A stretch of DNA of 64,000 bases from Desulfovibrionaceae bacterium (GTDB taxonomy: Bacteria > Desulfobacterota > Desulfovibrionia > Desulfovibrionales > Desulfovibrionaceae), in assembly GCA_015233395.1 (NCBI GenBank), contig JADFXV010000003.1, positions 1 to 64,000 on the forward strand, written 5' to 3'. Below the pieces are notes generated by a model. The model had not been told where the DNA came from and searched no databases. It saw nothing but the letters and a program-made list of their open reading frames with translations. Positions within the stretch are counted from its first letter, which is position 1. Each line of letters starts with the position of its first letter. The position numbers and the translations under genes are program-made. Below, piece by piece: positions 20,318-63,901 of this stretch.

Positions 20318-20341
20318 CAGCCCGTCGAAAAACGGGCTGCT
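20316..20341 (+). terminator. Strong hairpin at the end of the C-methyltransferase gene
   Basis: AGCAGCCCGT and ACGGGCTGCT form a perfect 10-bp stem around a 6-base loop CGAAAA. The stem overlaps the TAG stop (20315-20317). No T-tract follows, so it may work as a Rho-assisted or 3'-protecting hairpin. Confidence 0.55.
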
Positions 20342-20361
20342 GCGCGCCAGGGATGGCGCGC
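20342..20361. terminator. Second hairpin directly downstream
   Basis: GCGCGCC and GGCGCGC form a 7-bp stem with loop AGGGAT immediately after the first hairpin. It lies between convergent genes, so it could serve either strand. Two stacked hairpins mark the boundary of the AT-rich insert. Confidence 0.45.
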
Positions 20362-20385
20362 CGGATTCGGGAGGCCGGGATTCTT

Positions 20386-22573: not shown

Positions 22574-22654
22574 GGCGTCCTCCGCTTGGTGATGTCATAT
22601 GAGCAAAAACAATCGATGCAGTATGCGCGGCGCGAATTGGATCAAGTGTGACGT

Positions 22655-45024: not shown

Positions 45025-45056
45025 CACATCCTCCGGTGACAGGCTGCGCCCGTAGT

Positions 45057-46469: not shown

Positions 46470-46512
46470 AAACTGGCGCCTTTCGGTTTGAGCGGCCGTT
46501 TGGGAAAACGAT

Positions 46513-47568
46513 TCAGGGCTCGCGGCGTTCGGACAGGCCGAGCGCCGCAAGGATTTCGCCGGCGATGCGTTCGGCCCCGCGGCCGTCGACCGGGCTGTTG
46601 AACGTCTTGCCGCGCGGCAAAATCGCAGTCAGGCCGCCGGCGATGCGTGAGGGCGTCGCCTCGGCGGCCAGGCCGAGAATGACCCCGCAGCCATGCTCTT
46701 GCAACGGCCGTGCCGATTCCATGTGGTCCGGGGTGAGACAGATCATGGCCGTATACACCCCAAGCGCGGCGAATTCGTACGCCGTGACTCCGAACGAGAT
46801 CAGCCCGGCGTCCGCCCCCCGGATCAGCGCCGCCATATCGACGGGCCGGCTGACGAGCCGGATGCGCGACGGGTTTTGCCGCGCCAAGCGTTCAAGTTCC
46901 TCCCGGCGCCCGAAACCCGGGCCGAGAGCGACTGCGGCTCGAAAGCCGGCCTCAAGCTCCAGCAGCCCCCGCACGGCGATCAGGGTCAAGCCGGCCGGAT
47001 CGCCGCCGCCCATGCTGACGGCCAGCAGCGGCGGGGAGTTGACGCTCCGGGGACCGGGTTGCCTGAATTCGGGACGCAGCAAAACCCAATCGAAGCCCTG
47101 GCGCAACCGGCCTTGAAAACCGGTCCAGTCCATCCGTTCAAGCCGCGGCGACGGAGGATAGTAGGCCAGGTCGGCAAAAAGCCTGGCGTCGCCGGGATTG
47201 TCGATAACCACGATCAAGACGCCTTTGCGCCTGGCCAGGCGAAGCGTGCGCGCCGGAAAATCGTCGCGCGCGTCGCAGACGAGCGCCCGGGCGCCGGTGG
47301 ATTCCAAGACGCGCTCCATCCAGCCGGCGTAATCGGCCTCTTCCCCGGCCGCCGGAGGGAGCATCTCAAAGCCCGCGGCGGCGACGGCCCGGCTCGCCAG
47401 TTCGTCTAGGCGCGAGGCGAACACCGGCCGGACCCGGCCGCCAAGGCGCAGCTCCCCGGCCAAGGCCAGGCAGCGCGTCATATGGCCCAGGCCAAGGGTC
47501 GCCGAGGCGTCGCACCGGATGACCACGGCCGTCGCCGCGTCGCCCGCGAAAGCCTGGGCCGCGCCCAC
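46513..47568 (-). CDS. pseG: UDP-2,4-diacetamido-2,4,6-trideoxy-L-altrose hydrolase (PseG/SpsG family)
   Basis: Nucleotide-sugar hydrolase with a MurG-like GT-B fold, 351 residues. It releases UDP to give the free hexose used by NeuB/PseI. The signature RCDASATLGLGHMTRC (18-33) includes the catalytic histidine (H29), followed by SMGGGDPAG near 180 and GVTAYEFAALGVY near 265. The start is the GTG at 47568, which overlaps the TAG of the upstream gene (TAGTG). This rules out earlier in-frame codons inside that gene. With the two upstream genes it reproduces the spsE-spsF-spsG order of Bacillus spore-coat synthesis. Confidence 0.82.
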   Translation of the reverse strand: MGAAQAFAGDAATAVVIRCDASATLGLGHMTRCLALAGELRLGGRVRPVFASRLDELASRAVAAAGFEMLPPAAGEEADYAGWMERVLESTGARALVCDARDDFPARTLRLARRKGVLIVVIDNPGDARLFADLAYYPPSPRLERMDWTGFQGRLRQGFDWVLLRPEFRQPGPRSVNSPPLLAVSMGGGDPAGLTLIAVRGLLELEAGFRAAVALGPGFGRREELERLARQNPSRIRLVSRPVDMAALIRGADAGLISFGVTAYEFAALGVYTAMICLTPDHMESARPLQEHGCGVILGLAAEATPSRIAGGLTAILPRGKTFNSPVDGRGAERIAGEILAALGLSERREP

Positions 47569-48347
47569 TAGCGGCCTTCCTCGGGCGAAGCCAGCCCGCG
47601 AGCGTCCTCGGCCAGGGATTTCAGGTAGCCCTCGTTCGGGACGATGTGGGCGTTGAGCGCCGCGATTTCCGGGCGCCTGGACAGCAGGGCCACAATATCG
47701 GCCGTCGAAAATATTTCCCCGGCAGCGTAAAGTTCGTCGTAGACGGCCGACAGCAGGGCGTAATCGGCCGGTTCGTCCAGGGTCCAGCGGTGGTGCGCCA
47801 GGCCGGAGAATTTTTCCAGGCCGCCGATGCGGAAACGCTCCGGCCGGTTGATCAGATACGGACCGACGTGCTCGCGCTCGGACGGCAGGGCGGCTTCTTT
47901 CCAGGCCGCCGTGAGAGCGGCCAGGGAATAGACCGTGCAGTCCAGGCCGTCGGGAAATTCTCCGGCCAGGCCGTAAACGTCGAAGCCTCCGGCGAGAAAC
48001 CCCTCGACCACCTCGTCGACCACGGCCGGATCGATGACCGGACAGTCCCCGGTGACGCGCGCCACCGGGTCGGCCCGGTGCGCGACGGCGGCGCGGTAAT
48101 AGCGGTCCAGGACGTCGCGCTCCGACCCCCGGAAACAGGAAACCCGGTTCTCGGCGCAAAACCGCTCGACGGCGTCGTCGGCCGGTCCGGCGGTGGTGGC
48201 CACGACGATCCCGGCCAGGGAGCGGCAACGCGCCAGGCGGTCGAGGATGTGCCCCAGCGCCGGCCTGCCGGCCAGCGGCATGAGGACCTTGCCCGGCAGG
48301 CGGGTTGAGCCCATGCGGGCCTGGACGATGGCGACCGGCCGGCTCAT
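47568..48347 (-). CDS. spsF: SpsF-family cytidylyltransferase-like protein
   Basis: Protein of 259 residues with IVQARMGSTRLPGK (7-20), the variant CTP/nucleotide loop of SpsF, and VARVTGDCPVIDP near 93-105. It presumably activates the sugar acid made by NeuB with CMP, though the family is less well characterised than PseF. Its start (48347) overlaps the NeuB stop by four bases (ATGA), and its stop overlaps the PseG start, so the three are a coupled set. The loop differs from the other cytidylyltransferases in the window, so the two types probably use different substrates. Confidence 0.8.
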   Translation of the reverse strand: MSRPVAIVQARMGSTRLPGKVLMPLAGRPALGHILDRLARCRSLAGIVVATTAGPADDAVERFCAENRVSCFRGSERDVLDRYYRAAVAHRADPVARVTGDCPVIDPAVVDEVVEGFLAGGFDVYGLAGEFPDGLDCTVYSLAALTAAWKEAALPSEREHVGPYLINRPERFRIGGLEKFSGLAHHRWTLDEPADYALLSAVYDELYAAGEIFSTADIVALLSRRPEIAALNAHIVPNEGYLKSLAEDARGLASPEEGR

Positions 48348-49222
48348 TTGCGCGCCCACTCCTGCCTGACCGCCAGGGTCGGCCGCAGACCGTCGCCGGG
48401 ATCGGCGCGCCAGGCGACGTCGCCCGCCTCCCCTGGAGCCGGCCGCTTGATCCCGTCGCCGTCGGCGGCAAGGCCGTCGCGCACGTCCCGGATGACCTGC
48501 GCGATCCGGCCGGGCAGCCAGCAATGGCCGCTTTGGAATTCGGCCCCGGCGCCGTCGAGGTCGAGATGAAACTCCACCAGCTCGGCCCCGTGGGCGTGCA
48601 CCGCCCGGTGGATCACGCCGGGACTGGCCGTATGGTCGGACCAGCCGGCCTTGCAGCCGAAGGCGCGGCGCAAAAAGCCGATGGCGCTCAGGTTGGCCTC
48701 GGCGGGCTTTGCGGGATAGCCGGAAACGCAGTGCAAAAGGACCGGGCCGGGACAACCGGCCTCGCGCGCGGCGGCGACGGCCGCTTCGATCTCCCCGGGC
48801 ACGGCCATGCCCGTGGACAGAATCAACTCAATGCCCGTGGCCGCGCAGGCGCGCGCCAGCGCAAGCCAGTTGAGTTCGTAGGAGGCGATCTTCAGGAAAT
48901 CGACATAGGGCGCAAGCTCGCCCACGGCCTCAAGATAAAAGGGCGTGCAGCCGAAAGCCAGGCCCCGGCTTTTGGCCCGCGCGGCCAGTTCCGGGATGAT
49001 CGCAAGGGGCAGTTCCCAGGCCTTGCGCCGGCGCAGTTTTTCGCTTTTCGCCAGGACTTCGGGAGCAAACAGCGAATCGATCCGGAAGAGCTGGAATTTC
49101 ACGGCGTCGCAACCGGCGTCCGCAGCCGCGTCGATCAAGGCCAGGCACCGCTTCGGGTCCTGGTTGTGGTTGCTTGAAACCTCGGCGACAAAGCGCACGG
49201 GAGCGGCGATTTTATGACTCAC
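48344..49222 (-). CDS. N-acetylneuraminate/pseudaminate synthase family protein (NeuB/PseI/SpsE)
   Basis: Condenses PEP with a hexosamine to make a nonulosonic acid; TIM-barrel aldolase-like enzyme of 292 residues. EVSSNHNQD (14-22), DAVKFQLF (38-45), a KIASYEL segment near 135 and LSTGMA near 155 fit the family. It is about 50 residues shorter than PseI and NeuB because the C-terminal SAF (antifreeze-like) domain is missing; the end reads RPAPGEAGDVAWRADPGDG instead. It is the only PEP-condensing synthase in the window. GTG start, GGGAA about 9 bases upstream. Confidence 0.82.
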   Translation of the reverse strand: MSHKIAAPVRFVAEVSSNHNQDPKRCLALIDAAADAGCDAVKFQLFRIDSLFAPEVLAKSEKLRRRKAWELPLAIIPELAARAKSRGLAFGCTPFYLEAVGELAPYVDFLKIASYELNWLALARACAATGIELILSTGMAVPGEIEAAVAAAREAGCPGPVLLHCVSGYPAKPAEANLSAIGFLRRAFGCKAGWSDHTASPGVIHRAVHAHGAELVEFHLDLDGAGAEFQSGHCWLPGRIAQVIRDVRDGLAADGDGIKRPAPGEAGDVAWRADPGDGLRPTLAVRQEWARK

Positions 49223-49232
49223 GGCCGTTTCC

Positions 49233-50540
49233 CTATTCCGGCGTCAGCCGGACAAAACCGGCGTGAGCGACGGGAGTGCTCAAAAGCGCGGCCGGGTCCG
49301 TCGCGGCCATGGCGGCGAAGACCTCGTCCACGGCCTGGCCGTAAGCGGACACGTCGTCCAGGGCATGGGCCAGGCAGGGTTTGAACTGGCGATAGCCGAG
49401 AAAGCCCCGCGCGAGCATGGCGATGGTGAAAAAGGTGGCCCGCTCGCGGGAATATTCGCCCGGAAAATCAAGGTGGCACAGACTCGGCAGGCCGGAGACG
49501 CGCACGCTAAGGCCGTGTCTGTCCGCCGCTCCGCGCCACAGCGTTTGGACCGCCCGGCCGATCGCGCAGATATGCTCGGCGGCGTTTTCCCGGACGTATT
49601 TGCCGATGGTGGCCAGGGCTGCGGCCGGGCCGACGCGCTCGGTCCAGTTGGTGCTCGATATGAAGGTGGTCTGCGCCGCCTCCATGACCTCCCGGCGGCC
49701 GATCACCGCGGCCATGGCGTAGCCGTTGGCCATGGACTTGGCGAACACGGCCATGTCCGGCGCCACGCCGTAGCGCAGATGGATGCCGCCGGCGTTCATG
49801 CGGAAGGCGCTGGTGATCTCGTCGAAGATGAGGGTCGCGCCGATGCGGCCGGCGGTCGCGACCAGGCTGTCGAGATATTGACGCGGGGCTTCCTCACCCC
49901 TGGCCGGTTCGACGACGATGGCCGCGATTTCGCGCTCCCGGCCCGCGATCTTCTCGTGCAGCGCCGCGATGTCGTTGAAGAAAAATGGAATGGCCGTGCC
50001 GGCGAGCCCCTTGGGGACGCCGTTTGGGGCCAGCCCCGGCAGCAACTGGCCGTCCAGGGCGTCGCCGTCCAGGTTGGCCGCCAGATACCAGTCCATCCAG
50101 CCGTGATAGCCGCTGAACAGGACCGTGTCCCGGCCGGTGGCCGCCCGGGCGATGCGCACGGCCATGGCCATGGCTTCGCCGCCGCTTCTGGCGTAGCGGA
50201 CCATGTCGGCCCAGGGGTGCATGGTCGTGAGCAGTTCGGCCAGGGCGACTTCTTCCGGGCAGTTCAGCGAAGTGGCCACCCCGTTTCGCACGGCCGCAAC
50301 GACCGCGTCGTCCACCTCGTCGTCGGCGTAGCCCAGGATCACCGCGCCGACGCCGAGGATGCTCATGTCGGTGTAGGCGTTGCCGTCCAGATCCCAGACG
50401 CGCGTTCCCTTGGCCTTGGAAAAGTAGGCCGGCCAGACGCCCGGGGCCATCATCTCCGGGCGTTTGGACAGAAGCTGCGCGCCGCCGGGGATGAGTCTCT
50501 TGGCTTTGTCGTAGAGGCTTTGGGTCTTGTTCGCCGTCAC
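49233..50540 (-). CDS. Class III PLP aminotransferase, glutamate-1-semialdehyde aminomutase-like
   Basis: Fold-type I PLP enzyme of 435 residues. The PLP lysine is K268 in FAKSMANGYAMAAV; FDEIT at 239-243 binds the ring nitrogen; YARSGGEAMA (116-125) anchors the phosphate. It resembles HemL, but its place directly upstream of NeuB and SpsF suggests it aminates a sugar or hydroxyacid for the glycan, not tetrapyrrole synthesis. GTG start at 50540 with AGGAGG 9 bases upstream. First gene of the pseG-spsF-neuB unit. Confidence 0.82.
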   Translation of the reverse strand: MTANKTQSLYDKAKRLIPGGAQLLSKRPEMMAPGVWPAYFSKAKGTRVWDLDGNAYTDMSILGVGAVILGYADDEVDDAVVAAVRNGVATSLNCPEEVALAELLTTMHPWADMVRYARSGGEAMAMAVRIARAATGRDTVLFSGYHGWMDWYLAANLDGDALDGQLLPGLAPNGVPKGLAGTAIPFFFNDIAALHEKIAGREREIAAIVVEPARGEEAPRQYLDSLVATAGRIGATLIFDEITSAFRMNAGGIHLRYGVAPDMAVFAKSMANGYAMAAVIGRREVMEAAQTTFISSTNWTERVGPAAALATIGKYVRENAAEHICAIGRAVQTLWRGAADRHGLSVRVSGLPSLCHLDFPGEYSRERATFFTIAMLARGFLGYRQFKPCLAHALDDVSAYGQAVDEVFAAMAATDPAALLSTPVAHAGFVRLTPE

Positions 50541-52569: not shown

Positions 52570-53361
52570 GTGCCGCGTCGTCCCCTGGTTTCAGTCATCA
52601 TCCCGACATACAACCGGGCGCAATTGCTCCGGGAGGCGATTTCCTCGGTCCTGGCCCAGACTTGCCAGGATTTCGAGATTCTCGTGGCCGACGACGGCTC
52701 AAGCGACAATACCGGGCAGGCCGTGGCCGCCATCGCCGACCCGAGGATCGTCTATATCCCGCTTGCGCGCTCCGGCCGTCCGGCCGTGCCCCGCAACGCC
52801 GCCATGGCGCGCGCCCGGGGACGCTACCTGGCCTTTTTGGATTCCGACGACCTGTGGCTGCCGGGCAAGCTGGCCCTGCAGACCCAGGCGATGGCCGCGC
52901 GGCCCGGCCTGCTGGCCGTGGCCGCGAACGTCGGCATTCTGCCCGGCGGTCCTGAAAAGGCCCAGGACAGAAGCGGCGACGAGCTCGTCTCGTTCGACGC
53001 CCTGGCCGGCATGCAAACCTGGCTGGCCAATTCCACGGTGCTGCTGGACGCCGCCGTGCCGGAACTGATCGGCCCTCTCGACGAGGACCCGGCGCTGCGC
53101 GGGACCGAGGACCACGACTATTGGCTTCGAATCCTGCGCCACCGCGACGTTTCGATTCTCAACATGGCCGAGGTCCTGGCCGGCTACCGGCTGCACGGGG
53201 ACAATCTGCTGGGAGCCCTCATGGGCGAAAAGACGCTGCGCATGCTCGCGCGGATTTACCGCAAACACCTTGATTTCAGGCCCGGACTGCTGGGCGGGCG
53301 GCTTGAGCAGATCGAGGCCGAGCTTTCCCTGACCGGCAAGACGTCAGGCGGCGGCGCGTGA
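52570..53361 (+). CDS. Glycosyltransferase, GT2 family
   Basis: GT-A glycosyltransferase of 263 residues. VSVIIPTYNRAQLL (6-19), LVADDGSSDNT (38-48) and FLDSDDLWL (near 92-100) are the standard strand, nucleotide and DXD motifs. The C-terminal end is short, as in GT2 transferases of O-antigen loci. GTG start at 52570. Last gene of the three-gene plus-strand unit beginning at 50999, and convergent with the paralogue gene that ends at 53381. Confidence 0.87.
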   Translation: MPRRPLVSVIIPTYNRAQLLREAISSVLAQTCQDFEILVADDGSSDNTGQAVAAIADPRIVYIPLARSGRPAVPRNAAMARARGRYLAFLDSDDLWLPGKLALQTQAMAARPGLLAVAANVGILPGGPEKAQDRSGDELVSFDALAGMQTWLANSTVLLDAAVPELIGPLDEDPALRGTEDHDYWLRILRHRDVSILNMAEVLAGYRLHGDNLLGALMGEKTLRMLARIYRKHLDFRPGLLGGRLEQIEAELSLTGKTSGGGA

Positions 53362-53380: not shown

Positions 53381-55177
53381 TTACTCCACTTTCCCCGCCA
53401 AATCCAAGGCCAGTTCCGTCAGGACCGGCACATCCAGATCGTAGTTCCCGGCATTGAGATAATCCGCCTCGTCTTGCTCGTTGACCGGCGGCGCGCACAC
53501 CCACCCGGCGGCGTTTTCGCGGGCTATGGGCGCAAAGGGGACGGGTTGCGTCACATCCGGGGCCAGTCCCATGATTTTGCGCGGGCCGTGCAGGATGCCG
53601 GGCAGATTGGCGATGTTGGGGAAGGTCAAACCGTTGCCGTAGGCGATGATGCAGAAGTCCGCGAGATGGACGCAGACCACGCTCTCGTGCAGCGCAAGCG
53701 CGGTGGCGTCGAAAACGTCCAGCTCCCGGGGGAGCCGCTCCCGGATGCCCGCAAGCGTCTCGCGTTCCCAGGACGGCGCGCCGTCGAAGATCACCCCCAG
53801 GCCGGGATGGCGCGTAAAGAGCGCCCGGATCACCTCCGGATAGCCCTCGACCTGGCCGCGCCAGGCCCGGCGGCGGCTGCGCAGGGAGATCCAGAGCACG
53901 AGGGAGTGGCGCTTGCGGAAGGCGGCCGCGCGCGCCAAAAAGCCGGCCGGGCATTTTTGCCGCGAGATTCGAAGCAGCCGCCGGGCGAACGCGTCGGTGA
54001 CGGGGGAAAGGTCGCTTGCGAGAAAGCACAGGGCGTTGCCGCCTAAGGCGCGCCGGAAGGTTTCGGCGGCGGCGCGTTCCTCGCTCGCGGCCACGGCCGA
54101 GACGACCTCGACGCCGCGAAATAGTTTGGCCAGATCGTAGGGGTCGTGGCGGGCGGCCAGCACGCGCTTGATCCGGCCGCCCAGAACCCGGCTTTTCTCC
54201 AGGCGCGAAAGGGCGGTCGCCTCCCAGTTGAGGTGCTCGCCGTATTGGTTGATGACCCCGGTGAGGGCCGTTAGTTCGCGCGGCGTTTCCCCGGCGAGGT
54301 AGGCGGCGACGGCCTGCGGGTAGTACAGGCACAGGCGCTTGAAATCGTCGGCCGTCCGCGCGTAGCGCTTTGGGGCGAAGGCCTTGTCCAGGCCCGGTTC
54401 GTACCCCAGGTGGTTGCGCGCGATGAACTCGCCTTGCGGCGCATACAGCCCGTAAACGCCCTCTCCGTAGACTCCGGACATCAGGAAATATTCGAGGCAG
54501 CAGACGAAGCGGTAGAACACCACGCCGCCGAAGTCCGGCCCGGCGACCGGAAAGGACTGATCCGTGGCGGCCGGCCGGCCGCAGACCGGGCAAAACGAGA
54601 ACGCCTGTCCGTGGCGCAGGATCTGGTCCATGACCGGGCGCCATGCGTCGCCGCGCCCGCGCCAGACGAGCGGGGCGGCGGCGCGCAGCCGCCTTTCGGT
54701 TTCCGGCGAGCGGTTGAAGTTTTTGGACAGGGCCGAGGCGTCGATGTTCAGGCCGGCCAGAACTTCACGCGAGTCTTCAAGACGCATCGCGTCGGCGAAA
54801 ACGTAGGGCTTGGAGGCGAGCAGGTAAAACGGATCGCCGGGGTCCAAAAGATCGATGAAGACCGGATTGCGCTTGCGCCGCGCCGCCCGCAAAAGCAGGG
54901 GGGCCGCGCCGTCGTCGAGCCCCCACAGCAGGCAGGCGTCGATGGATTCAAGGAAGGCCTCCGGATCGCCTTGCCGCGCATACCCCTGGTCCTGGCGTTT
55001 TTCGTCAGGCGCGAAGATGGCCCTCACGTCGACTCCGTCCAGCAGCCCCTTCATGTTCCCGCAGAAGCGGCCGAACTGGGCCGGGTAGACGCCCACGCGC
55101 CGGCCGGCCAAGGCGCGGCGCAGGGCGTCAAGCCTGTCGCGGATCGCGTCCAGCAGGATCAAGGGCGGCCCCCGCAA
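53381..55177 (-). CDS. Unrecognised large paralogue 1 of the 590-residue family (divergent copy)
   Basis: First of three homologous proteins I cannot assign to a known family. This copy has 598 residues. It keeps the N-terminal GRRVGVYPAQFGRF (25-38) and the ESIDACLLWG segment, a CPVCG zinc-type pair near 196, and HPGLGVIFDGAP followed by a GNGLTF segment near the end. It has lost two motifs the other copies share: GH..RNE and SPHGN, here YGEHLNWE and AYGNG. No ATG or GTG start fits; TTG at 55177 (or 55162) is the only start in frame. It lies 13 bp after the upstream radical SAM gene and is probably cotranscribed with it. Confidence 0.7.
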   Translation of the reverse strand: MRGPPLILLDAIRDRLDALRRALAGRRVGVYPAQFGRFCGNMKGLLDGVDVRAIFAPDEKRQDQGYARQGDPEAFLESIDACLLWGLDDGAAPLLLRAARRKRNPVFIDLLDPGDPFYLLASKPYVFADAMRLEDSREVLAGLNIDASALSKNFNRSPETERRLRAAAPLVWRGRGDAWRPVMDQILRHGQAFSFCPVCGRPAATDQSFPVAGPDFGGVVFYRFVCCLEYFLMSGVYGEGVYGLYAPQGEFIARNHLGYEPGLDKAFAPKRYARTADDFKRLCLYYPQAVAAYLAGETPRELTALTGVINQYGEHLNWEATALSRLEKSRVLGGRIKRVLAARHDPYDLAKLFRGVEVVSAVAASEERAAAETFRRALGGNALCFLASDLSPVTDAFARRLLRISRQKCPAGFLARAAAFRKRHSLVLWISLRSRRRAWRGQVEGYPEVIRALFTRHPGLGVIFDGAPSWERETLAGIRERLPRELDVFDATALALHESVVCVHLADFCIIAYGNGLTFPNIANLPGILHGPRKIMGLAPDVTQPVPFAPIARENAAGWVCAPPVNEQDEADYLNAGNYDLDVPVLTELALDLAGKVE

Positions 55178-55190
55178 GCGGGCCGGCCGC

Positions 55191-56672
55191 TCACGCCGGC
55201 CCTGCCTGCCCGGCCGGCGCGGGCTTTCGCCAAAAGTTCTTGTCGACGAACAACAGTTCGAAGCGGCCGCGAACGAGGCTCTTGAGCAGGCGGCCCAGGG
55301 TCAACAGGCAGCCGAAGGCTCCGGATTTCTTGTACATCGCCTTCCAGCGCCAGGGCGCGAGATAGATGCTGGCGAAGGCGTCGTTTTGCAGGGCGATCAA
55401 ATCCTCGGGAGAAAAGCCGCCCACCTTCATGACCGCCGTATTGTACCGGCGGAAGGAGGCGAAATCCTTTTTGATGAGTTCAAGGCCGTGTTCCCCGGCC
55501 AGGGACATTTTGTAGAGCTCGGTGCCGGGATAGGGCACGGCGATGCTGATGTTGGCCTGCTTGATTCCCTTGGACCAGCGCAGGTACGACAGGGTGCGCT
55601 TGATGGAGTCCAGGGTTTCCCCGGGCAGGCCGATCATGCAGGAATTGAGCGTTTCGACGCCGTACTTGTTGGTCAGCTTGTTCGCCTTTTCGTAGGCCTC
55701 CAGGGGAACGCCCTTGCGCATGATCTCGCGCACGCGCGGATCGGCCGATTCCAGGCCAAACGAGATCCGGACCATGCCGGCGGCCGCCAGGGCGGCCACG
55801 ATCTCTTCGTCCACCAGGTTGGCCCGGGTGCTGCCTTCGAAGGTGATGTCCAGATTCTGCTCGACGATCTGGCGGCAGATCGAAAGGATATGGCCCTTGT
55901 CCAGGGTCAGGGTGTCGTCTAAAAACATGAAGTGGCGGGTGCCGAAGCGCTCAACGACCCCTTTGATTTCCGCGATTACCTTGGCGGGCGAGCGTTTGCG
56001 CACCGTGCGGCCGAAGACGTCGGTGCTGCAGAAGATGCAGTGGAAAGGGCAGCCGCGCATTGTCATGATCGGGGTGAAGCGCTTGCGCCCGGTTTTCAGG
56101 GAGCCGAGCATGTATTTGTCCATGTGCAGCAGATGCCTGGCGGGCACGGGCAGGGAGTCGATGTCCGTGACCGGGTCGGCCTGGCCGGTGAACACGATCG
56201 CGCCGTCCTTGCGGTACATGATCCCCTTGACCCCGGCCGGTTCGCCCCCGGCGGCGAGGGTCTCAAGCAGGGCGGGAAAGGACTGTTCGGCCTCGCCGAT
56301 GCAGGCGTAGTCGAAGCAGGGCGCGAAGGCTTCCTGTTTGAGGATGGTGATGTGCGGCCCGCCGAGCACCAGGGGGACGAGCGGGAAGCGCTCCTTGAAC
56401 AGCTCGGCGCAGCGGCGCGCCACGTGGAAAAACGGGGTCGTCGCGGTCAGGCCGATCGCGTCCGGGGCAAAAGCCTTCACCCGCCGGGCCACGGCCTCGT
56501 TGTCCAGGTTTTCGGCCTGGGCGTCGATGATCGCCGCTTCGTGGCCGCTCGCCTCCGCAATGGCCGCAAGCATGGCCAGATTGAGGGGCTGGTAGACCGC
56601 CCCGCGCTTGGCGAAAACGGAAAACAGGCCGTATTCGCCGGTCCATCTGGGAAAAACGAACAGGATTTTCAT
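55191..56672 (-). CDS. Cobalamin-binding radical SAM protein
   Basis: B12-radical SAM enzyme of 493 residues. Cobalamin domain about 1-150 (YQPLNLAMLAAIAEASGHE at 27-45, VLGGPHITILK at 102-112). Cluster ligands C208, C212 and C215 in GCPFHCIFC; ISFGLESADPRV and CMIGLPGETLDS are core strands. The C-terminus is basic with a W-rich tail. It belongs to the class of P-methylase/hopanoid-type radical SAM proteins by architecture only. ATG 56672 with GAGG 6 bases upstream, rather than an earlier ATG at 56690. Paired with paralogue 1. Confidence 0.85.
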   Translation of the reverse strand: MKILFVFPRWTGEYGLFSVFAKRGAVYQPLNLAMLAAIAEASGHEAAIIDAQAENLDNEAVARRVKAFAPDAIGLTATTPFFHVARRCAELFKERFPLVPLVLGGPHITILKQEAFAPCFDYACIGEAEQSFPALLETLAAGGEPAGVKGIMYRKDGAIVFTGQADPVTDIDSLPVPARHLLHMDKYMLGSLKTGRKRFTPIMTMRGCPFHCIFCSTDVFGRTVRKRSPAKVIAEIKGVVERFGTRHFMFLDDTLTLDKGHILSICRQIVEQNLDITFEGSTRANLVDEEIVAALAAAGMVRISFGLESADPRVREIMRKGVPLEAYEKANKLTNKYGVETLNSCMIGLPGETLDSIKRTLSYLRWSKGIKQANISIAVPYPGTELYKMSLAGEHGLELIKKDFASFRRYNTAVMKVGGFSPEDLIALQNDAFASIYLAPWRWKAMYKKSGAFGCLLTLGRLLKSLVRGRFELLFVDKNFWRKPAPAGQAGPA

Positions 56673-56707
56673 GCCGCCTCTTGCTTGCATGGATTACGCC
56701 GCGCCCC

Positions 56708-56736
56708 AATATGGAGCTTATCGCCGCGGTTTTCAA
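56708..56736 (-). promoter_or_regulatory. Candidate sigma-70 promoter of the radical SAM/paralogue 1 pair
   Basis: On the minus strand TTGAAA (56736-56731), 17 bases, CATATT (56713-56708), with about 35 bases between the -10 and the ATG at 56672. Confidence 0.42.
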
Positions 56737-56853
56737 TGCCGATTCTCAAAGCAAGAATCCTGCCAGGCCGTGCCGAGGAAAATACCGGCCGGGAGCGGCC
56801 CCTATCTGGACAGCCCGGGGCTTGGCAGGCATAAGAAGAGAGCCGTCCCGGCC

Positions 56854-56897
56854 ATATTTGGGCCGCATTTGGGCCGTATTTGGGCAGCATTTGGGAG
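56854..56897 (+). repeat. Four 11-bp tandem repeats directly upstream of paralogue 2
   Basis: The unit is RYATTTGGGCC with small changes: ATATTTGGGCC, GCATTTGGGCC, GTATTTGGGCA, GCATTTGGGAG. The last unit ends in GGGAG, which is the ribosome-binding site of the gene starting at 56904, so the array supplies the translation signal. Unit number could affect leader length. Confidence 0.88.
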
Positions 56898-56903
56898 AAA
56901 TCC

Positions 56904-58667
56904 ATGTACGTGACAGAGCGTTTACGCGAAAAACTGGGCGATCTTGTCCGGGCCCTCTCCGGCTGCCGGGTCGGCGTGTACGCCGCCGATTTCGGCCGGT
57001 TCAACCGCAATCTCAAGGAGTATCTCGCCGGGCTCGACGTCGCGGCCATCTATCTGCCGGCCAAGCGCAACTACGATCAAGGATTTCCTCCGGAGCGCGA
57101 CATGGAGCGCTTCCTCGCCGGGATCGACTGCCTCTTGCTGTGGGGCGACGACGAGGTGACTCTGGAATTGGTTCAGACCGTCATCGACGGCGGCAACCGC
57201 ATCCGGGTGGTCAACGCCTTGCGCCGGGGACATCCTTTGTCTCTTTTGAACGCCGAAAAATCCTACCGTCGGGCGGCGCTTGACGCCTGGCCGTCGACCC
57301 GGGAGGAACTGCAGGCCGTCGACGGCCTGAGCAAGGCGCTCCTTGAAACCACGGCGCGGGGCCGAGCCTGGGGCGAACAGCCGCCGCAGATCGTTGCCGG
57401 GCTATTGCCCTTTGACCAAGCCGTAATGCACTACCGCGGGGTGTCGGCGGCATGCCCGGCCTGCGGCCGCGCCCTGCGTACGGTGAAATCCTTCGTGATT
57501 CCCGATCCGGCGAGGCACTACAGCACAATTTTCTATCATTTCGAGTGCCACGAGGAATTTTACCTCATCAAGGAGCCCTACGGCCTGGTCGGCGTCTATT
57601 TCCCCGTCCGGGAACTCTTTTTGAGCTTCATCGACTCGAAAAGCTGGCATGGCGTCAACAAGTACTACGAGAAAATGTGCAATGATCTCATCGATATATT
57701 CAAGACGTATGTCTTGTACGCCATGGAGGAAGTGGAAGCGTACATGCAAAACGCCGGGCCGTCGAAGGTTTTGGCCCTGATCGGAGATTTTTCGAGTTTC
57801 GGCCACTACGTGCGCAACGAACTGGCCGGGGTGCAGAAGATCATCGACGCCGGGGCGCTGGACAGGATCGACGCCTGGATCATAGGGAAAAACGACCACT
57901 TGCAGGTACGGCGGATTTTTCCCGAACTGTCCGCCGCGCGCAAAGTCTTCGGGATGGACGCCAAACGCATGGAGATGGAGACCTTTCGCGCCTGCTTTGC
58001 AGACAACGCGTGCGCCATGCTGGTTCATTACATCGGCGGTTTGTGCGACTTGCTGGCAAAGAGAATCGACCATAACCACGCCCGGCGCCACGTTGCGGCG
58101 GCGGTCGCGCAGCAGGTCGCCCAGGCGAAAAAACATTGGCCTCTCGTGTATGTCACCCTGCGCATCAAGCGCTGCTGGATATCCCAGGCAAAGGGCCTGG
58201 CCCTGATCCTCAACGCCCTGTTTGAAGAGCATCCCGGACTGGCGGTGGTCTTCGACGGCCTGCCCTACGAGCAAGACATTTTAAGCGACGTTCTTGGGCA
58301 ATTAGACCCCGGCATCGAGGCGTTTGACGCCCTGCATTGCACCAAGGCCGACACCCTGTTTTGGGGGAGCAATATCGACCTGCACATCTCCCCCCACGGC
58401 AACGGCAACTATTTCACCCTGATCCCCAACAAGCCGGGGGTGGTGCATGCGAACAAACAGTTTCTGGACATGTATCTCATCCCCGGACAAGACGGCTTCG
58501 TTGCGCCGAGTCCCAGGGAAAACCCCGCGCCCTGCCTGGCGGTGTACCCGGTTTGGGAAGACGACGAGCCCGATCTGCACCAGTGCGACTACGATCTCGA
58601 TTGGCGGCAGGTGCTCGCGGCGGCCAGGCGCATCCTGAATCTGATCCCCAGGCGCGACCGCGCCTGA
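56904..58667 (+). CDS. Unrecognised large paralogue 2 of the 590-residue family
   Basis: Best-conserved of the three copies (587 residues). Motifs in order: CRVGVYAADFGRFN (21-34), LAGIDCLLLWGDDE (71-84), CPACG with C184 and C187 and a third cysteine C215 in HFECHEEFY, FGHYVRNELAGVQ (299-311), HPGLAVVFDGLP (443-454), LHISPHGNGNYFT (493-505) and PSPRENPAPC (535-544). The last part resembles the HG loop of GT-B or GT61-type transferases, which fits a glycosyltransferase, but I cannot name the family. No signal peptide or membrane segment. Start ATG 56904 with GGGAG 6 bases upstream. Followed 33 bp later by a radical SAM gene. Confidence 0.72.
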   Translation: MYVTERLREKLGDLVRALSGCRVGVYAADFGRFNRNLKEYLAGLDVAAIYLPAKRNYDQGFPPERDMERFLAGIDCLLLWGDDEVTLELVQTVIDGGNRIRVVNALRRGHPLSLLNAEKSYRRAALDAWPSTREELQAVDGLSKALLETTARGRAWGEQPPQIVAGLLPFDQAVMHYRGVSAACPACGRALRTVKSFVIPDPARHYSTIFYHFECHEEFYLIKEPYGLVGVYFPVRELFLSFIDSKSWHGVNKYYEKMCNDLIDIFKTYVLYAMEEVEAYMQNAGPSKVLALIGDFSSFGHYVRNELAGVQKIIDAGALDRIDAWIIGKNDHLQVRRIFPELSAARKVFGMDAKRMEMETFRACFADNACAMLVHYIGGLCDLLAKRIDHNHARRHVAAAVAQQVAQAKKHWPLVYVTLRIKRCWISQAKGLALILNALFEEHPGLAVVFDGLPYEQDILSDVLGQLDPGIEAFDALHCTKADTLFWGSNIDLHISPHGNGNYFTLIPNKPGVVHANKQFLDMYLIPGQDGFVAPSPRENPAPCLAVYPVWEDDEPDLHQCDYDLDWRQVLAAARRILNLIPRRDRA

Positions 58668-58700
58668 CGCTCGAAGCCGCACTTCAAATGTGGAGTTTTT

Positions 58701-60272
58701 ATGAAAATTGTAATGATACAGATCGATCTAGTGCTCGGCTCTCGAATTTTGCTGAGTGTGCTTGGGCAAAGCGGCTACGAAGTCAAGTCGTTGCAGATAA
58801 TCATAAAATATATAGATGCGTTGTCGAGTGAAGATCTGGAAATAATTTATGAGTATGTTTCCGATGCCGATGTCGTCGGGCTGTCGTTCAATTCTTTTTA
58901 TGCAGTCCAGGGGGAAATTTTATGCCGCTATATAAAGTCAAAATCATCGAAGCATACGATTATTTGCGGTGGATATCACGCCACCGCAATGCCGGAAGCC
59001 GTCCTTGAGTATGCCGATATTGTCATTTTGTACGAGGCTGAAAAAGCGTTGCCCGCCGTCTTGGAATCGCTCGGCGATATGGCGGAGGTGGAGAAGATTC
59101 CCGGCGTCCTGACAAAAAATAAAAAAGGGAAACAATATCATTGTTCTCCCGAGATCGTTTGGGATCTGGATTCGTTGCCGTTCCAATCGCTCGATACGGA
59201 AAAAATACAGTATTTTTCCAAAGAGAAAGGAATTTATACCCCCGATGTAACCAATCTCTTCGTGGACAATGAAAAGCGATACATGATTCTTGGTTCTCGT
59301 GGATGTCCATTTTTTTGTACATACTGCTCCAATCATTTGTATCATTCTTTCGACAAGCGAATATTGAAGGTACGCAAGAGGTCGGTCAAGAATATTGTCG
59401 ATGAAATGAAGTGGGCGACGAAAATGGGCTTTGAATCGTTTTATATCGCCGACGACAATTTTTTTTCGTTTCATATTGAAGAGATTGAAGAGTTTTGTAA
59501 ATTATATGAAGATACAAAAAAGCCCTTCTCCGTCAGTGGTGTGAATCCGAACAATTTCAGGGATAAAAAATCCGAAAAAAAATTACAGTTGTTGCTGGGT
59601 TGCGGCCTGTCGGACGTGCGGGTCGGGATTCAAAGCGGCAGCGACAAGACATTGAAACGTTTCAATCGAGGTTATAAAGCAGCCGAATTGGCCGACTTGC
59701 TGCGGCCGATCGACGCGCATCGCGATACGATTTTCCCCGCTCCTCGGGACAAGTTGCATGTCGCTCTCGACTTTATTTGCGACTCTCCCTGGGAAAACAC
59801 GGAGGATAAACAGGCGACCGTCAGATTGGCGAATACGGTTCTTAAGCAATTCACGATATTTTTTTACACGCTCATTTATCTTCCGGGAACGAAATTGTAT
59901 CTCGATGCGCTTGAGAGCGGCCAGATCACGGATCATGTGAAAGAGATCTTCCATAGGGGAATTGCCGGAGTCGAAGATAATCCGACAAATCGCTTGTTGT
60001 TTTTGGTCGGGATACTGAAAGAGCGCGGACTATCTATCGACGATGAAGTGTTGGAGCATCTTTTTGATTTGTCATTTGCCGATGAAAAGCTATTCGTATC
60101 GATAGTGGATAATATGATTTCCATTGTAAATGGCGTCGAAAGCCATCATCATGTGGATCTGAAGCACGGCGCCATTCATCCGTATCTGACGGGATTCAAT
60201 GCGTGGACGAAGCAGACCGGAGAAATTGGCAAAAAAGTTCTTTTCAGAAGTTATCATCAGCCCTACGGCTAG
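58701..60272 (+). CDS. Cobalamin-binding radical SAM protein, AT-rich
   Basis: B12-radical SAM protein of 523 residues. Cobalamin domain about 1-135 (LSFNSFYAVQGE at 61-72, IICGGYHATAMPE at 87-99). C202, C206 and C209 in GCPFFCTYC bind the cluster; FYIADDNFFS and VRVGIQSGSDKTL are core strands. Codon use is clearly AT-richer than that of paralogue 2 just upstream, pointing to a different origin. It starts 33 bp after paralogue 2 with GGAG before the ATG and is probably cotranscribed. It converges on the third paralogue gene. Confidence 0.85.
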   Translation: MKIVMIQIDLVLGSRILLSVLGQSGYEVKSLQIIIKYIDALSSEDLEIIYEYVSDADVVGLSFNSFYAVQGEILCRYIKSKSSKHTIICGGYHATAMPEAVLEYADIVILYEAEKALPAVLESLGDMAEVEKIPGVLTKNKKGKQYHCSPEIVWDLDSLPFQSLDTEKIQYFSKEKGIYTPDVTNLFVDNEKRYMILGSRGCPFFCTYCSNHLYHSFDKRILKVRKRSVKNIVDEMKWATKMGFESFYIADDNFFSFHIEEIEEFCKLYEDTKKPFSVSGVNPNNFRDKKSEKKLQLLLGCGLSDVRVGIQSGSDKTLKRFNRGYKAAELADLLRPIDAHRDTIFPAPRDKLHVALDFICDSPWENTEDKQATVRLANTVLKQFTIFFYTLIYLPGTKLYLDALESGQITDHVKEIFHRGIAGVEDNPTNRLLFLVGILKERGLSIDDEVLEHLFDLSFADEKLFVSIVDNMISIVNGVESHHHVDLKHGAIHPYLTGFNAWTKQTGEIGKKVLFRSYHQPYG

Positions 60273-60351
60273 CCGCCTTCGTGAAATATGAACAAAGCGG
60301 AAAAGTTAAAAACTGTACGCTTCCGGCAATACCGTCGATTCGTGCTTGGCC

Positions 60352-62136
60352 TCAGCCGCCCGGCGTGCTTTTGCGGCCGAGGTCGCGGCGCGGCAGCATG
60401 GCCAGCAGCCGTTTGACCGCTTCCAGCGCCTCGCGCCAGTCCAGTTCGTAATCGCGCAGATACAGGTTGGCCTCGGCGGTTTCCGCAACCGGATACACCG
60501 CCAGGCACGGGGCCGGATTTTCTCTCGGGTTGGGACAGACCAGGCCGCCGCCAAGGCGCTCGGCGTACAAATCGAGAAAGGCGGCGTTGGAGTGCACTAC
60601 GCCTGGAACATTGGCCAGGGTGGTGAAGGTGGTGGTGTTGCCGTGGGGGCTTAGGTGCAAATCGACGCAAAACGCCCAGTAATAGGAGTCGGCGATGCGT
60701 TTGTGCAGGGCGTTGAACACGCCGGCGCGCGGCGTCAGCTTGGCCGCGATGGCCTTGAAAACAGGCGCCATGTCCGGCAGGCCGTCGAACACCACGCCCA
60801 GATCCGGATAATCCTCGCTCAAGGCGTTGATGATGTTGGCCAGTCCCTCGGCCTGGCTCGTCCAGCCCCGTTTGTCGCGCAGGCTGATCCAGATCAGCGG
60901 CCAGTGCCTGGACAGGGCCAGACTCGCCTCTTCGTGGGTCGGCAGGGTGACCTTGCGATCGACGTAATTTTCCTTGAGCAACCTGGCCAGGGCGCCGGTG
61001 AGCAGGCCGCTATAGAAGGGGAAAAAGGCGCAGGACCGGCTTTGCAGCACAAAGGAGAAAATTTCCGTCGCCCGGCGCTTGTCGTCCTTGGCCTCGATGG
61101 AACGCAGTCCGGAGAGTTCCGGAAAGACCGCGCCGATGTCGAGATAGTCGTATTTGTCGACGATCCAGCGGTCCACGTTGGCCGCAAGCCCGCTCGCGAC
61201 GATTTGGCGCACCCCGGCGATTTCGTTGCGCATGTGGTGGCCCAGGCTCTCGAAGGCCCCGGTCAGGCCGGCGACGAGCGTGGCCCCGCCGTCGTTTCGA
61301 TAGCTCTCGGCCAGGTCGAGATAGTAGAGCAGGTATGTTTTCAGGCTGGTCAGCAGGCGGGCGATCTGGACCGCGTTGTACGACATGGGGAGTTGGACGT
61401 CGCCTGGGCGCAGCATGGTGATAAAAAGCTCTTTTTCCGGGAAATAATGGGCGACCATGCGGAAGGGGTCGCGGACCAGAAAAAATTCGCCGTGGCACTG
61501 AAAATGGTAAAAAATCAAATAGTACTGATGCGAGGGGTGGGGCGCGACGAAAGAGCGCGTCGTCCGGCAGGTTTCGCCGCAGACCGGACAGACGGCCCGG
61601 GCCTTGCGGTCCATGACGATGCGGCGTTCGAAAAGGGAAAGCCCATCCAGGCCGTCTGGGGCGTCGGGTGAGTCGGGCGCGGCCGCTGCGGCGTTGGCCG
61701 CAAGATGCTCGCCGGCGAGGCCGTATCGTTCAAGGTCCGCTCCAGCCGCGAGCAGTTCCTCGAAAACGCGGATTGTAAGCCGTCCGTTGTACAGCAGGCC
61801 GCGCGGCTCGTTCGGGTTCAGGGCGTCGATGACCGCGATCTCGCGGCCGGGCTCCCGCGCGCGGCGCTGGATTTCGCAGGCCAGGTCGTCGACGCCAAGC
61901 AGCAGGATCGCGTCGATGTCCCGGAAAAAATCGTCCAGGTCGCGCCGGGGCGTAAAGCCGTGGTCGCGGTGATGGTCCATGGGCAGATAGACGGCCGTTA
62001 CGTCGATCCCGCGCAGCAGGCTCGCGAGCGAGGCGTTGAAACGGCCGAAATCGGCGGGATACAACCCCACCCTGCGCCCGGCCAGCGCGCTTTGCAGCGT
62101 TTCCAGGTTGCGGCGCGGCAGGCGGGTCAAATGCAT
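60352..62136 (-). CDS. Unrecognised large paralogue 3 of the 590-residue family
   Basis: Third copy, 594 residues. Conserved blocks: GRRVGLYPADFGRFN (20-34), FRDIDAILLLGVDD (71-84), CPVCGETCR with C183 and C186, HFQCHGEFF with C214, LGHHMRNEIAGVR (298-310), YPDLGVVFDGLP, LHLSPHGNTTTF and PNPRENPAPC near the end. A short linker before the zinc site (PDSPDAPDGLDG) is unique to this copy. The start is ATG 62136 with AGGGA 6 bases upstream; frames that begin further out overlap the promoter. It has its own near-consensus promoter, unlike copies 1 and 2, which follow or precede radical SAM genes. Confidence 0.72.
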   Translation of the reverse strand: MHLTRLPRRNLETLQSALAGRRVGLYPADFGRFNASLASLLRGIDVTAVYLPMDHHRDHGFTPRRDLDDFFRDIDAILLLGVDDLACEIQRRAREPGREIAVIDALNPNEPRGLLYNGRLTIRVFEELLAAGADLERYGLAGEHLAANAAAAAPDSPDAPDGLDGLSLFERRIVMDRKARAVCPVCGETCRTTRSFVAPHPSHQYYLIFYHFQCHGEFFLVRDPFRMVAHYFPEKELFITMLRPGDVQLPMSYNAVQIARLLTSLKTYLLYYLDLAESYRNDGGATLVAGLTGAFESLGHHMRNEIAGVRQIVASGLAANVDRWIVDKYDYLDIGAVFPELSGLRSIEAKDDKRRATEIFSFVLQSRSCAFFPFYSGLLTGALARLLKENYVDRKVTLPTHEEASLALSRHWPLIWISLRDKRGWTSQAEGLANIINALSEDYPDLGVVFDGLPDMAPVFKAIAAKLTPRAGVFNALHKRIADSYYWAFCVDLHLSPHGNTTTFTTLANVPGVVHSNAAFLDLYAERLGGGLVCPNPRENPAPCLAVYPVAETAEANLYLRDYELDWREALEAVKRLLAMLPRRDLGRKSTPGG

Positions 62137-62204
62137 GGTCGGTCCCTGGGGGTGTATCGTTCGGGGAGCGCGCGCTGCGGCGCGACATGATTGCGGCGCT
62201 CCCA

Positions 62205-62232
62205 AGTATAGCCAAGCCCGTTTCGCTGTCAA
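62205..62232 (-). promoter_or_regulatory. Near-consensus sigma-70 promoter of paralogue 3
   Basis: On the minus strand TTGACA (62232-62227), 16 bases, TATACT (62210-62205). It is the strongest promoter match in the window. The expected start is about 60 bases before the ATG at 62136. Confidence 0.68.
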
Positions 62233-62332
62233 TCCGAAGCCGGTCGCGGCGGTGATTAACTTTGTCCGGGAATTGGTCTATGCGTGGGGCGGGAGCGCAT
62301 CGCCGCCCCGCACTCCAACCCGCGAGGCCGCC

Positions 62333-63901
62333 ATGCCGAGCATCGATCATCTCGCCGGCCGTCACGTCGTCATCGACAAGCGCAAGGGCCAATACGTCTG
62401 CTTTCCCGACGTCTTGTGCTCGACGACCAGGCGGCTGATCGCCGTGTACCGCGAAGCGGACACGCACGTGGCCGGGCGTTGCGCCATCCTGTATAAAATC
62501 AGCGGCGACCTCGGGCGAACCTGGTCCAAGGCGCGCTATCTCAACGAGCATGCCGGCCATTGCCCGCGCATCTCCACGCTTGGCGACGGGTCGGTGGCGA
62601 TCATCGACGACATGACCAACACCGTCTTTTACGGCGACGCGTCCCTTGACTCCTTCACCCCCCGGCCCTACGCCGGGGCGCACATTCCCCTGGCCGACCG
62701 GCTGCTCGAATTGCCCGGCGGGGCGCTTTTCACCACCGGCCACACCCACCGGGGGACTTTTCCCCATCCCAAGACCAGGCAGCCGACCTCGGAGCAGATG
62801 GGCTACGTCTCGGAAAACCGGGGCCAGGATTTCCATCCCCTTTCGGTGGTGGCCTACGACCGCAATCTGGTCTTGTGCGAGGCGTCGGTGGTCAGGCTGC
62901 CAAGCGGCGAGCTGTACGCGCTGATGCGCGAGAACAGCTTCGTTTACGAGCCGATGTATTCCTGCCGCAGTTTCGACGACGGCCGCACCTGGAGCCGGCC
63001 CGCGCCGACGCGGCTGATCGGCCACCGCCCGACCGTGGGCCTGACCCGCGAGGGCAAGCTGCTCGTGACCTATCGCAACGTCGGCCCGGACCCGGGCACG
63101 GCCGCCTGGCTTGGCGACGCTTCCGATCTGGACGGCGATTTCGCGGTCCACGGCCGCACGCCGTCTCCGGACAACCCCAGGCTGACAAGCGAAGGCCTGC
63201 TCATCGAGAACGCTTCGGGCAAGTTCGCTCCGGCGCGCTATGCGCTTAGGCCCCTGACCGATCCCGAGCGGGCCCGGGCGACGCTTGCCTGCGAGGTCAG
63301 GGTGGACCGGGCGGGGAAAAACGGCTGCGGCGTGCTCCTTGGCGGCTGGTGGCGGCTTTTTCCGGACCGCATCGAACCGCCGGACACGGGCGGCGCGCGC
63401 GCCCCCTCCATCGCGCTGCGGCGCGGGCGGTTTCACGAGCTGCGCTTCGTCTACGACAAGGGGCGCGCGACCCTGTACGTGGACAACGAGAAAAAGATCC
63501 GGATCGAGGTCGACGCCAACAGCGCCAACGCGCGGCCGATCGTCTTCGGAACCCAGTCGTTCACGGAGCATAACCACGGCCGCCATATCTGGCGCACGGT
63601 CGCCCTCGCCATCGACGAGCCGGAGTACGCCCGCAAATACCGCTTCCACTGGGACTGGCGCGACGGCCTGCCCGACGCCTACGCCCGGGCCCGGGTGCTG
63701 GAGCTCAAGAACGCGCGCTTTTGCACCTCGGGCGATTTCGGCTATTCCGGCTGGACGCAATTGCCGGACGGACGGTTTTTTTGCGCCTACCACCACAACG
63801 AGGGCGGCAAAAGAAGCTACCGCTCCGGATTCGACAGCTTCGTCATGGGCAGCTGGTTTTCAGAGGAAGATTTCGGCAAGCAAGGAGACGTCGCCCGATG
63901 A
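62333..63901 (+). CDS. Sialidase-like protein with BNR/Asp-box repeats and LamG-like domain
   Basis: Predicted six-bladed propeller protein of 522 residues related to exo-sialidases. Two perfect Asp boxes (S-x-D-x-G-x-T-W) are at 57-64 (SGDLGRTW) and 213-220 (SFDDGRTW), a degenerate one (SGDFGYSGW) is near 490. RLIAVYREADT and LCEASVVRLPSGELY hold candidate active-site residues. A beta-sandwich insert at about 300-400 (ELRFVYDKGRATLYVDNEKK) looks LamG-like. No signal peptide, so it should be cytoplasmic. It could hydrolyse or bind a nonulosonic acid. GAGG precedes the ATG at 62333. Confidence 0.75.
   Translation: MPSIDHLAGRHVVIDKRKGQYVCFPDVLCSTTRRLIAVYREADTHVAGRCAILYKISGDLGRTWSKARYLNEHAGHCPRISTLGDGSVAIIDDMTNTVFYGDASLDSFTPRPYAGAHIPLADRLLELPGGALFTTGHTHRGTFPHPKTRQPTSEQMGYVSENRGQDFHPLSVVAYDRNLVLCEASVVRLPSGELYALMRENSFVYEPMYSCRSFDDGRTWSRPAPTRLIGHRPTVGLTREGKLLVTYRNVGPDPGTAAWLGDASDLDGDFAVHGRTPSPDNPRLTSEGLLIENASGKFAPARYALRPLTDPERARATLACEVRVDRAGKNGCGVLLGGWWRLFPDRIEPPDTGGARAPSIALRRGRFHELRFVYDKGRATLYVDNEKKIRIEVDANSANARPIVFGTQSFTEHNHGRHIWRTVALAIDEPEYARKYRFHWDWRDGLPDAYARARVLELKNARFCTSGDFGYSGWTQLPDGRFFCAYHHNEGGKRSYRSGFDSFVMGSWFSEEDFGKQGDVAR

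Follow-up and report, generated by a model that had tools for sequence, protein, structure and literature searches.

Three proteins encoded in a 64,000-nucleotide stretch of a Desulfovibrionaceae genome (contig JADFXV010000003.1; the whole stretch is hereafter called the window) are probably paralogs in an undescribed and rare family of glycosyltransferases of the GT-B fold. These enzymes, probably cytosolic, would add sugars made by the surrounding gene island to a surface glycan or glycoprotein. An earlier note, made from the sequence alone, had singled the proteins out as a three-copy family of 587–598 residues that matched no known family, and both statements hold. The three genes are:

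53381..55177, minus strand: family copy 1, 598 amino acids from a TTG start, the most diverged copy
56880/56904..58667, plus strand: family copy 2, 587 amino acids from 56904
60352..62136, minus strand: family copy 3, 594 amino acids, sister of copy 2 and without a co-oriented radical S-adenosylmethionine (SAM) partner

In BLASTP comparisons, copies 2 and 3 share 40% identity over 587 residues, which is the full length (447 bits, E 1e-155), and copies 1 and 2 share 30% over 581 residues (213 bits, E 1e-65). Judged by these alignments, the homology of the three copies is far beyond chance. They are the only family members in the source genome. Five motifs are common to all of them: G[RC]RVG.Y.A.FGRF, ID..LL.G.D, CPxCG followed by one distal cysteine, [HY]P.L.V.FDG.P, and REN. 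Three more that the earlier note had listed as shared, GH..RNE, SPHGN, and RENPAPC, are confined to copies 2 and 3, because copy 1 reads YGEHLNWE, IAYGN, and RENAAGW, respectively. A tree was built from 16 members belonging to Desulfovibrionaceae, cyanobacteria, and alpha- and gammaproteobacteria. It contains open forks and long branches, and in it copies 2 and 3 are sisters and copy 1 branches apart, a topology on which a recent tandem triplication was rejected.

The assignment to the GT-B fold comes from an AlphaFold2 model of copy 2, built from seven sequences (copy 2 and six relatives), with a mean predicted local distance difference test score (pLDDT) of 75.8 and a predicted template modelling score (pTM) of 0.78. 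Residues 288–583 of this model form a GT-B fold, and its best structural match is WaaF of E. coli (1psw; Z 16.2, root-mean-square deviation (rmsd) 4.3, 246 aligned residues). WaaC (2h1h) follows at Z 13.9, and PimA and BshA at Z 11–12, while the top Foldseek match is the GT9 protein 3tov (E 1.6e-5). The matches to GT-B enzymes at an rmsd of 4 span both lobes.

Across the 16 aligned members, and in the numbering of copy 2, D451, G452, and P511 are invariant (16/16), H301, W425, and D492 are kept in 15/16, R423 in 14/16, and E539 in 14/14. H301 begins the first helix of the N-lobe, immediately past the first strand; copy 1 is the exception here, its histidine lying one residue later. In the C-lobe, the first loop holds the R-x-W motif. 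Two of these sites can be placed on the DNA:

57801..57809, plus strand: candidate catalytic-base loop of copy 2, G300-H301-Y302, opening the first N-lobe helix after strand 288–293 in the model
58251..58259, plus strand: F450-D451-G452 (FDG) of copy 2, closing the second strand of the C-lobe (447–451 in the model)

The loop after the first strand carries the catalytic aspartate in GT9 enzymes and the catalytic histidine in plant UGTs, and in WaaC the lysine of the GT9 K-x-W motif binds the donor phosphate. The last ~300 residues would constitute the catalytic unit, with the conserved N-lobe histidine as the likely general base, and the C-lobe motifs R-x-W, FDG-x-x-x-E, D...G-x-G...N-K-P-G, and R-E-N would be expected to hold the nucleotide sugar.

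Sequence comparisons did not connect the family to any established one. The three copies have no Pfam or NCBIfam match at E < 0.1 and no PHROG match, and no Pfam family covers the core of the relatives tested. Searches of PDB sequences returned no match for copy 2 and no credible match for the family profile, and searches of the literature turned up no account of such a family. GT9 membership was rejected: the fold is similar, but hmmscan found no PF01075 match in copies or relatives, an hhalign comparison with eleven GT9 proteins was not significant (E 0.15, probability 0.4%), and two GT9 motifs, the catalytic aspartate and D-x-G-x-x-H, fail. The earlier note had likened the proteins to GT-B or GT61 transferases, and only the GT-B half of that comparison stood. 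PF04577 was unmatched by any member tested, and the six Desulfovibrionaceae genomes held no PF04577 protein at E 1e-5. GT61 structures were not among the listed PDB matches of the copy 2 model, a listing that leaves room for a structural likeness to GT61. The relation to Maf/DUF115 that the note proposed to check also failed to appear, with no PF01973 match in hmmscan and an hhalign alignment to five Maf proteins of 42 columns only (probability 0.7%); GT61 and Maf membership were both rejected on these profile results. A GT4-type profile comparison found no relation either. Because the fold is nearest to GT9 while the GT9, GT61, and Maf sequence tests fail, the proteins were filed as an unclassified GT-B family. 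A phage origin was likewise rejected, as there is no phage match, no viral contig, and no PHROG for the copies; the Enterobacter relative has a weak PHROG match (E 4e-4).

The family is rare, unnamed, and spread over several bacterial groups. Profile searches found members in six of the 348 genomes of the class, all Desulfovibrionaceae, one being the Humidesulfovibrio genome G097. In a sample of the phylum, no convincing member turned up outside Desulfovibrionaceae; one search gave two weak partial matches and another gave none. A first contig scan with a three-row alignment had no match; the contig profile scan found members in Microcoleus, in a Microcoleaceae metagenome-assembled genome (MAG), and in an Acetobacteraceae MAG, and plasmid searches added Methylobacterium, E. 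coli, and Enterobacter. The homology of the Enterobacter capsule protein is genuine, with an alignment to the family profile over 371 columns (hhalign E 4.6e-21). The E. coli relative (L008:6702-8525) occurs at full length in 3 of 5,426 complete genomes, always on a plasmid and inside a capsule locus; the one plasmid typed is IncX1/IncY.

What these proteins have in common is a C-terminal unit of ~430 residues. In copy 2, the predicted order of domains is a Rossmann-like N-terminal domain (~1–105), a linker, a CPxCG beta domain (~180–241), and the GT-B catalytic region (~288–583). The Rossmann-like domain is found in the window copies and in the G097 and G093 members, the N-terminus is short in the G027 and G121 members, and tetratricopeptide repeats (TPR), for which the window copies have no match, occupy the N-terminus of the G342 relative and, by eye, apparently those of the Microcoleus relatives as well. 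The N-terminal part would be a lineage-specific accessory, Rossmann-like and cysteine-rich in several Desulfovibrionaceae, made of TPR in G342 and apparently Microcoleus, and of other sequences elsewhere. Modelled alone, that of copy 2 scored lower (pLDDT 66.5, pTM 0.46). Its Rossmann-like first domain had weak structural matches (Z 5.8–7.5), some of them to the C-terminal domains of GDP-mannose dehydrogenase and of sugar C-methyltransferases. A PglD-type sugar sensor was considered for this domain and set aside, the structural likeness being weak and the profile comparison with neighbouring sensor-like domains unconvincing. In Microcoleus, a protein of 1075–1081 residues (L015:8801-12028, L016:2980-6225) has the family core fused between a repeat region and a methyltransferase-like C-terminus, and its gene sits downstream of a DUF288/STELLO-type-like gene (by eye).

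The zinc-type site proposed in the earlier note is present in the three copies but is not a family trait. The CPxCG pair and the distal cysteine are kept in the seven Desulfovibrionaceae members aligned, in which a cysteine or histidine 1–3 residues past the distal cysteine could be a fourth ligand. The cysteines are gone outside Desulfovibrionaceae and in G342, the motif reading CPFTG in Microcoleus, CPFSG in G342, and SPVDG in Acetobacteraceae. A family-wide zinc site was therefore rejected, and any metal binding would be local.

Gene contexts supply the second line of evidence for a transferase. Together with the 17 kb that follow it on the contig, the window makes up a surface-glycan island, which contains eight B12-radical SAM genes as well as genes for NeuB, cytidylyltransferases, aminotransferases, and GT2. 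Heptose-type kinase and nucleotidyltransferase genes (by eye) lie in the island at C92:70496-72327, and the window itself holds this cassette:

47568..50540, minus strand: nonulosonate-type cassette of a CTP_transf_3 cytidylyltransferase (PF02348, E 1e-25), NeuB (PF03102, E 2.5e-53), and a class-III aminotransferase (PF00202, E 2e-34)

On three Methylobacterium plasmids, an annotated UDP-glucuronate decarboxylase gene lies directly 3' of the family member (−4 to +18 bp, with a 4-bp overlap in one). The G342 member is near genes for glucose-1-P cytidylyltransferase, CDP-glucose 4,6-dehydratase, and RfbH, each scoring above its NCBIfam cut-off, with transposase-like remnants in between. Members from E. 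coli and Enterobacter sit in ABC-transporter capsule loci with NeuB, a cytidylyltransferase, and an IMPase, and a GDP-mannose-dehydratase-like gene (by eye) is found ~1.5 kb upstream of the Microcoleus member. A nucleotide sugar is common to these contexts, which come from independent lineages, while the sugar differs, and this is the pattern expected of a transferase family with changing donors. In the source genome, the copies would probably transfer island sugars of the nonulosonate or heptose type to a surface glycan or glycoprotein, possibly after B12-radical SAM enzymes had altered them by methylation, deoxygenation, or another reaction. The acceptor could be a polysaccharide, a lipid, or flagellin. 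A protein acceptor is possible because G097, G093, and G121 each have a Maf gene ~8–22 kb away from their family member, and because of the modular likeness to the flagellin glycosyltransferase FlmG (see below).

Two further observations were made at these loci. The Acetobacteraceae member has a neighbour (L017:3121-4782) with a DUF1796-like putative cysteine peptidase stretch (by eye), and the two proteins seem to have a similar N-terminal region. At 43645–46550 of the window, an asparagine-synthetase-like amidotransferase gene (by eye) stands beside a B12-radical SAM gene (45057–46550), possibly as a tailoring unit.

Several points weigh against a glycosyltransferase family. All members are uncharacterised, and profile searches tie them to no known glycosyltransferase family, the GT9 comparison included. 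The model draws on seven sequences, and its loops 500–506 and 536–539, which carry conserved residues, have pLDDT < 50. Copy 1, with several motifs lost, may be inactive, and the donor and acceptor, assigned from neighbour genes, are guesses. Non-hydrolysing UDP-GlcNAc 2-epimerases, which have the GT-B fold and do not transfer sugar, also match the model, several of them at Z 12–14 over approximately residues 286–583. Since nonulosonate genes occur at several loci and such pathways use these enzymes, the proteins could be GT-B-fold sugar-nucleotide epimerases or hydrolases (UDP-GlcNAc 2-epimerase-like or PseG-like) that make a precursor. This is quite improbable, because the best two-lobe matches are the glycosyltransferases WaaF and WaaC, the lineages with CDP-dideoxyhexose, UDP-pentose, and CMP-sugar genes would not all need one epimerase, and no member tested has a Pfam epimerase match. 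The missing aligned histidine and SPHGN of copy 1, together with the poorly modelled conserved loops, would also suit a catalytically dead sugar-binding, scaffold, or regulatory protein of the glycan island, whose copies 1–3 diverged freely. Such a protein would be expected to drift, yet H301, R423, W425, D451, D492, and E539 are kept among members that are 20–30% identical, and we regard this explanation as very improbable. A family of GT-B glycosyltransferases stays the probable reading.

The earlier note had also stressed the B12-radical SAM genes next to the copies and suggested an undescribed glycan-modifying module. The immediate neighbours are:

52570..53361, plus strand: GT2 glycosyltransferase adjoining copy 1 (PF00535, E 9e-31)
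55191..56690, minus strand: B12-binding radical SAM enzyme, upstream partner of copy 1 (PF02310, E 2.6e-23; PF04055, E 5.1e-27)
58701..60272, plus strand: B12-binding radical SAM enzyme downstream of copy 2 (PF02310, E 1.4e-10; PF04055, E 3e-15)
62036..63901, plus strand: BNR/sialidase-like open reading frame (ORF), divergent from copy 3 (PF13088, E 3.2e-9)

The layout was confirmed. Copy 1 lies directly 3' of its partner, whose end is ~13 bp from the TTG start, and the second B12-radical SAM gene directly follows copy 2 after a gap of 33 bp. Opposite copy 3 is the sialidase-like ORF, followed by a further B12-radical SAM gene, which agrees with the sialidase/radical SAM pair described in the note; the ORF as called by the program overlaps copy 3, and its true start is therefore probably further in. 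The G+C content falls to 55.8% at 56001–60000, compared with ~65% around, and there is a second dip of 56.2% at 20001–24000. The B12-radical SAM gene next to copy 2 lies in the first of these stretches of lower G+C and may be a recent arrival.

Proximity to these genes recurs in other Desulfovibrionaceae. The nearest B12 domain lies 0.06–9 kb from the member in five of the six genomes, an interval of ~1–4% of each genome, and the G093 member, like copies 1 and 2, directly adjoins a B12-radical SAM gene. These facts would fit a dedicated modification module formed by a family member and the neighbouring B12-radical SAM enzyme, which would be compatible with a GT-B glycosyltransferase as an add-on. 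By contrast, the nearest B12 domain in the sixth genome (G342) is ~18 kb off, and loci from other groups have no B12-radical SAM gene within the 5–21 kb examined. Only 23% identity over 274 amino acids is shared by the partners of copy 1 and copy 2, and only 25% by the G093 partner and that of copy 1. Moreover, with eight B12-radical SAM genes among ~59 in the island, the probability P that two of the three copies are next to one and co-oriented with it is 0.06, an approximate value, as the island gene list was chosen by third-position G+C (GC3) and by eye. With proximity confined to Desulfovibrionaceae, non-orthologous partners, and near-chance adjacency in the island, a fixed gene pair was rejected, and we consider a dedicated two-gene module unlikely. 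The association is with radical-SAM-rich glycan islands and is limited to Desulfovibrionaceae, so that, of the module suggested in the note, the transferase idea stood and the fixed pairing did not.

The islands themselves are crowded with such genes. Eight of the 13 B12-binding-domain genes of the source genome lie in one glycan island (C92:10998-79288), about one per 9 kb, and contig C33 of G097 has a similar crowd (9/13). The B12-radical SAM gene next to the G093 member (L011:10773-13055) encodes an enzyme that is extended at its C-terminus by a long stretch containing CPSCG...CPAC and Rossmann-like segments; this accessory layout is reminiscent of the N-terminal part of the family proteins.

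If the proteins are indeed glycosyltransferases, they add a family without a Pfam, NCBIfam, or PHROGs entry, and give a likely role to 'hypothetical proteins' encoded in capsule loci of E. coli and on plasmids of Methylobacterium; the missing transferase of polysaccharide pathways there may be the family gene. The two-gene unit of Methylobacterium, such as WP_012329524.1 of Methylobacterium radiotolerans with its operon partner WP_012329523.1, is a simple system for testing the donor in vitro, and unusual sugars might be sought in the Desulfovibrionaceae islands if the B12-radical SAM link is functional. More speculatively, and we think it unlikely, this could be a glycosyltransferase family new at the CAZy level, in which the N-terminal targeting domain is interchangeable and one core serves different nucleotide-sugar pathways; in Desulfovibrionaceae, sugars altered by B12-radical SAM enzymes would go to flagellin or other surface acceptors, giving undescribed glycans with C-branched or deoxygenated sugars.

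Among known systems, the GT9 heptosyltransferases WaaF and WaaC (PF01075) are the closest in fold. In the non-significant hhalign alignment, the R-C-W of the family falls on the GT9 K-C-W, and FDGxxxE near GT9 GGPxE. Unlike GT9, in which G16-D17 of the G-D loop is invariant in the alignment, the family has a histidine in the corresponding loop, and D-x-G-x-x-H (D276, G278, and H281 invariant in GT9) is replaced by x-G-x-G...N-K-P-G; it also carries extra N-terminal domains. The non-hydrolysing UDP-GlcNAc 2-epimerases share the GT-B fold but have no sequence-family match, and the family contexts call for no single epimerase. Maf/DUF115 proteins are found in the same genomes, but have no profile relation to the family. 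The E. coli and Enterobacter plasmid capsule proteins (WP_024195960.1, WP_181239555.1) are true core homologs, but have a different N-terminal part and no CPxCG site, and are also uncharacterised ('hypothetical protein'). Finally, FlmG, the flagellin O-glycosyltransferase of Caulobacter, has ~596 residues with an N-terminal interaction domain and a C-terminal GT-B domain of ~288 residues, and works with a nonulosonate pathway (PMC7591256). The window copies begin with a Rossmann-like domain instead of TPR; they resemble FlmG, by its description (PMC7591256), in size and in the modular arrangement of an N-terminal part and a GT-B domain, and the TPR of the G342 relative, and apparently of Microcoleus, extend this likeness.

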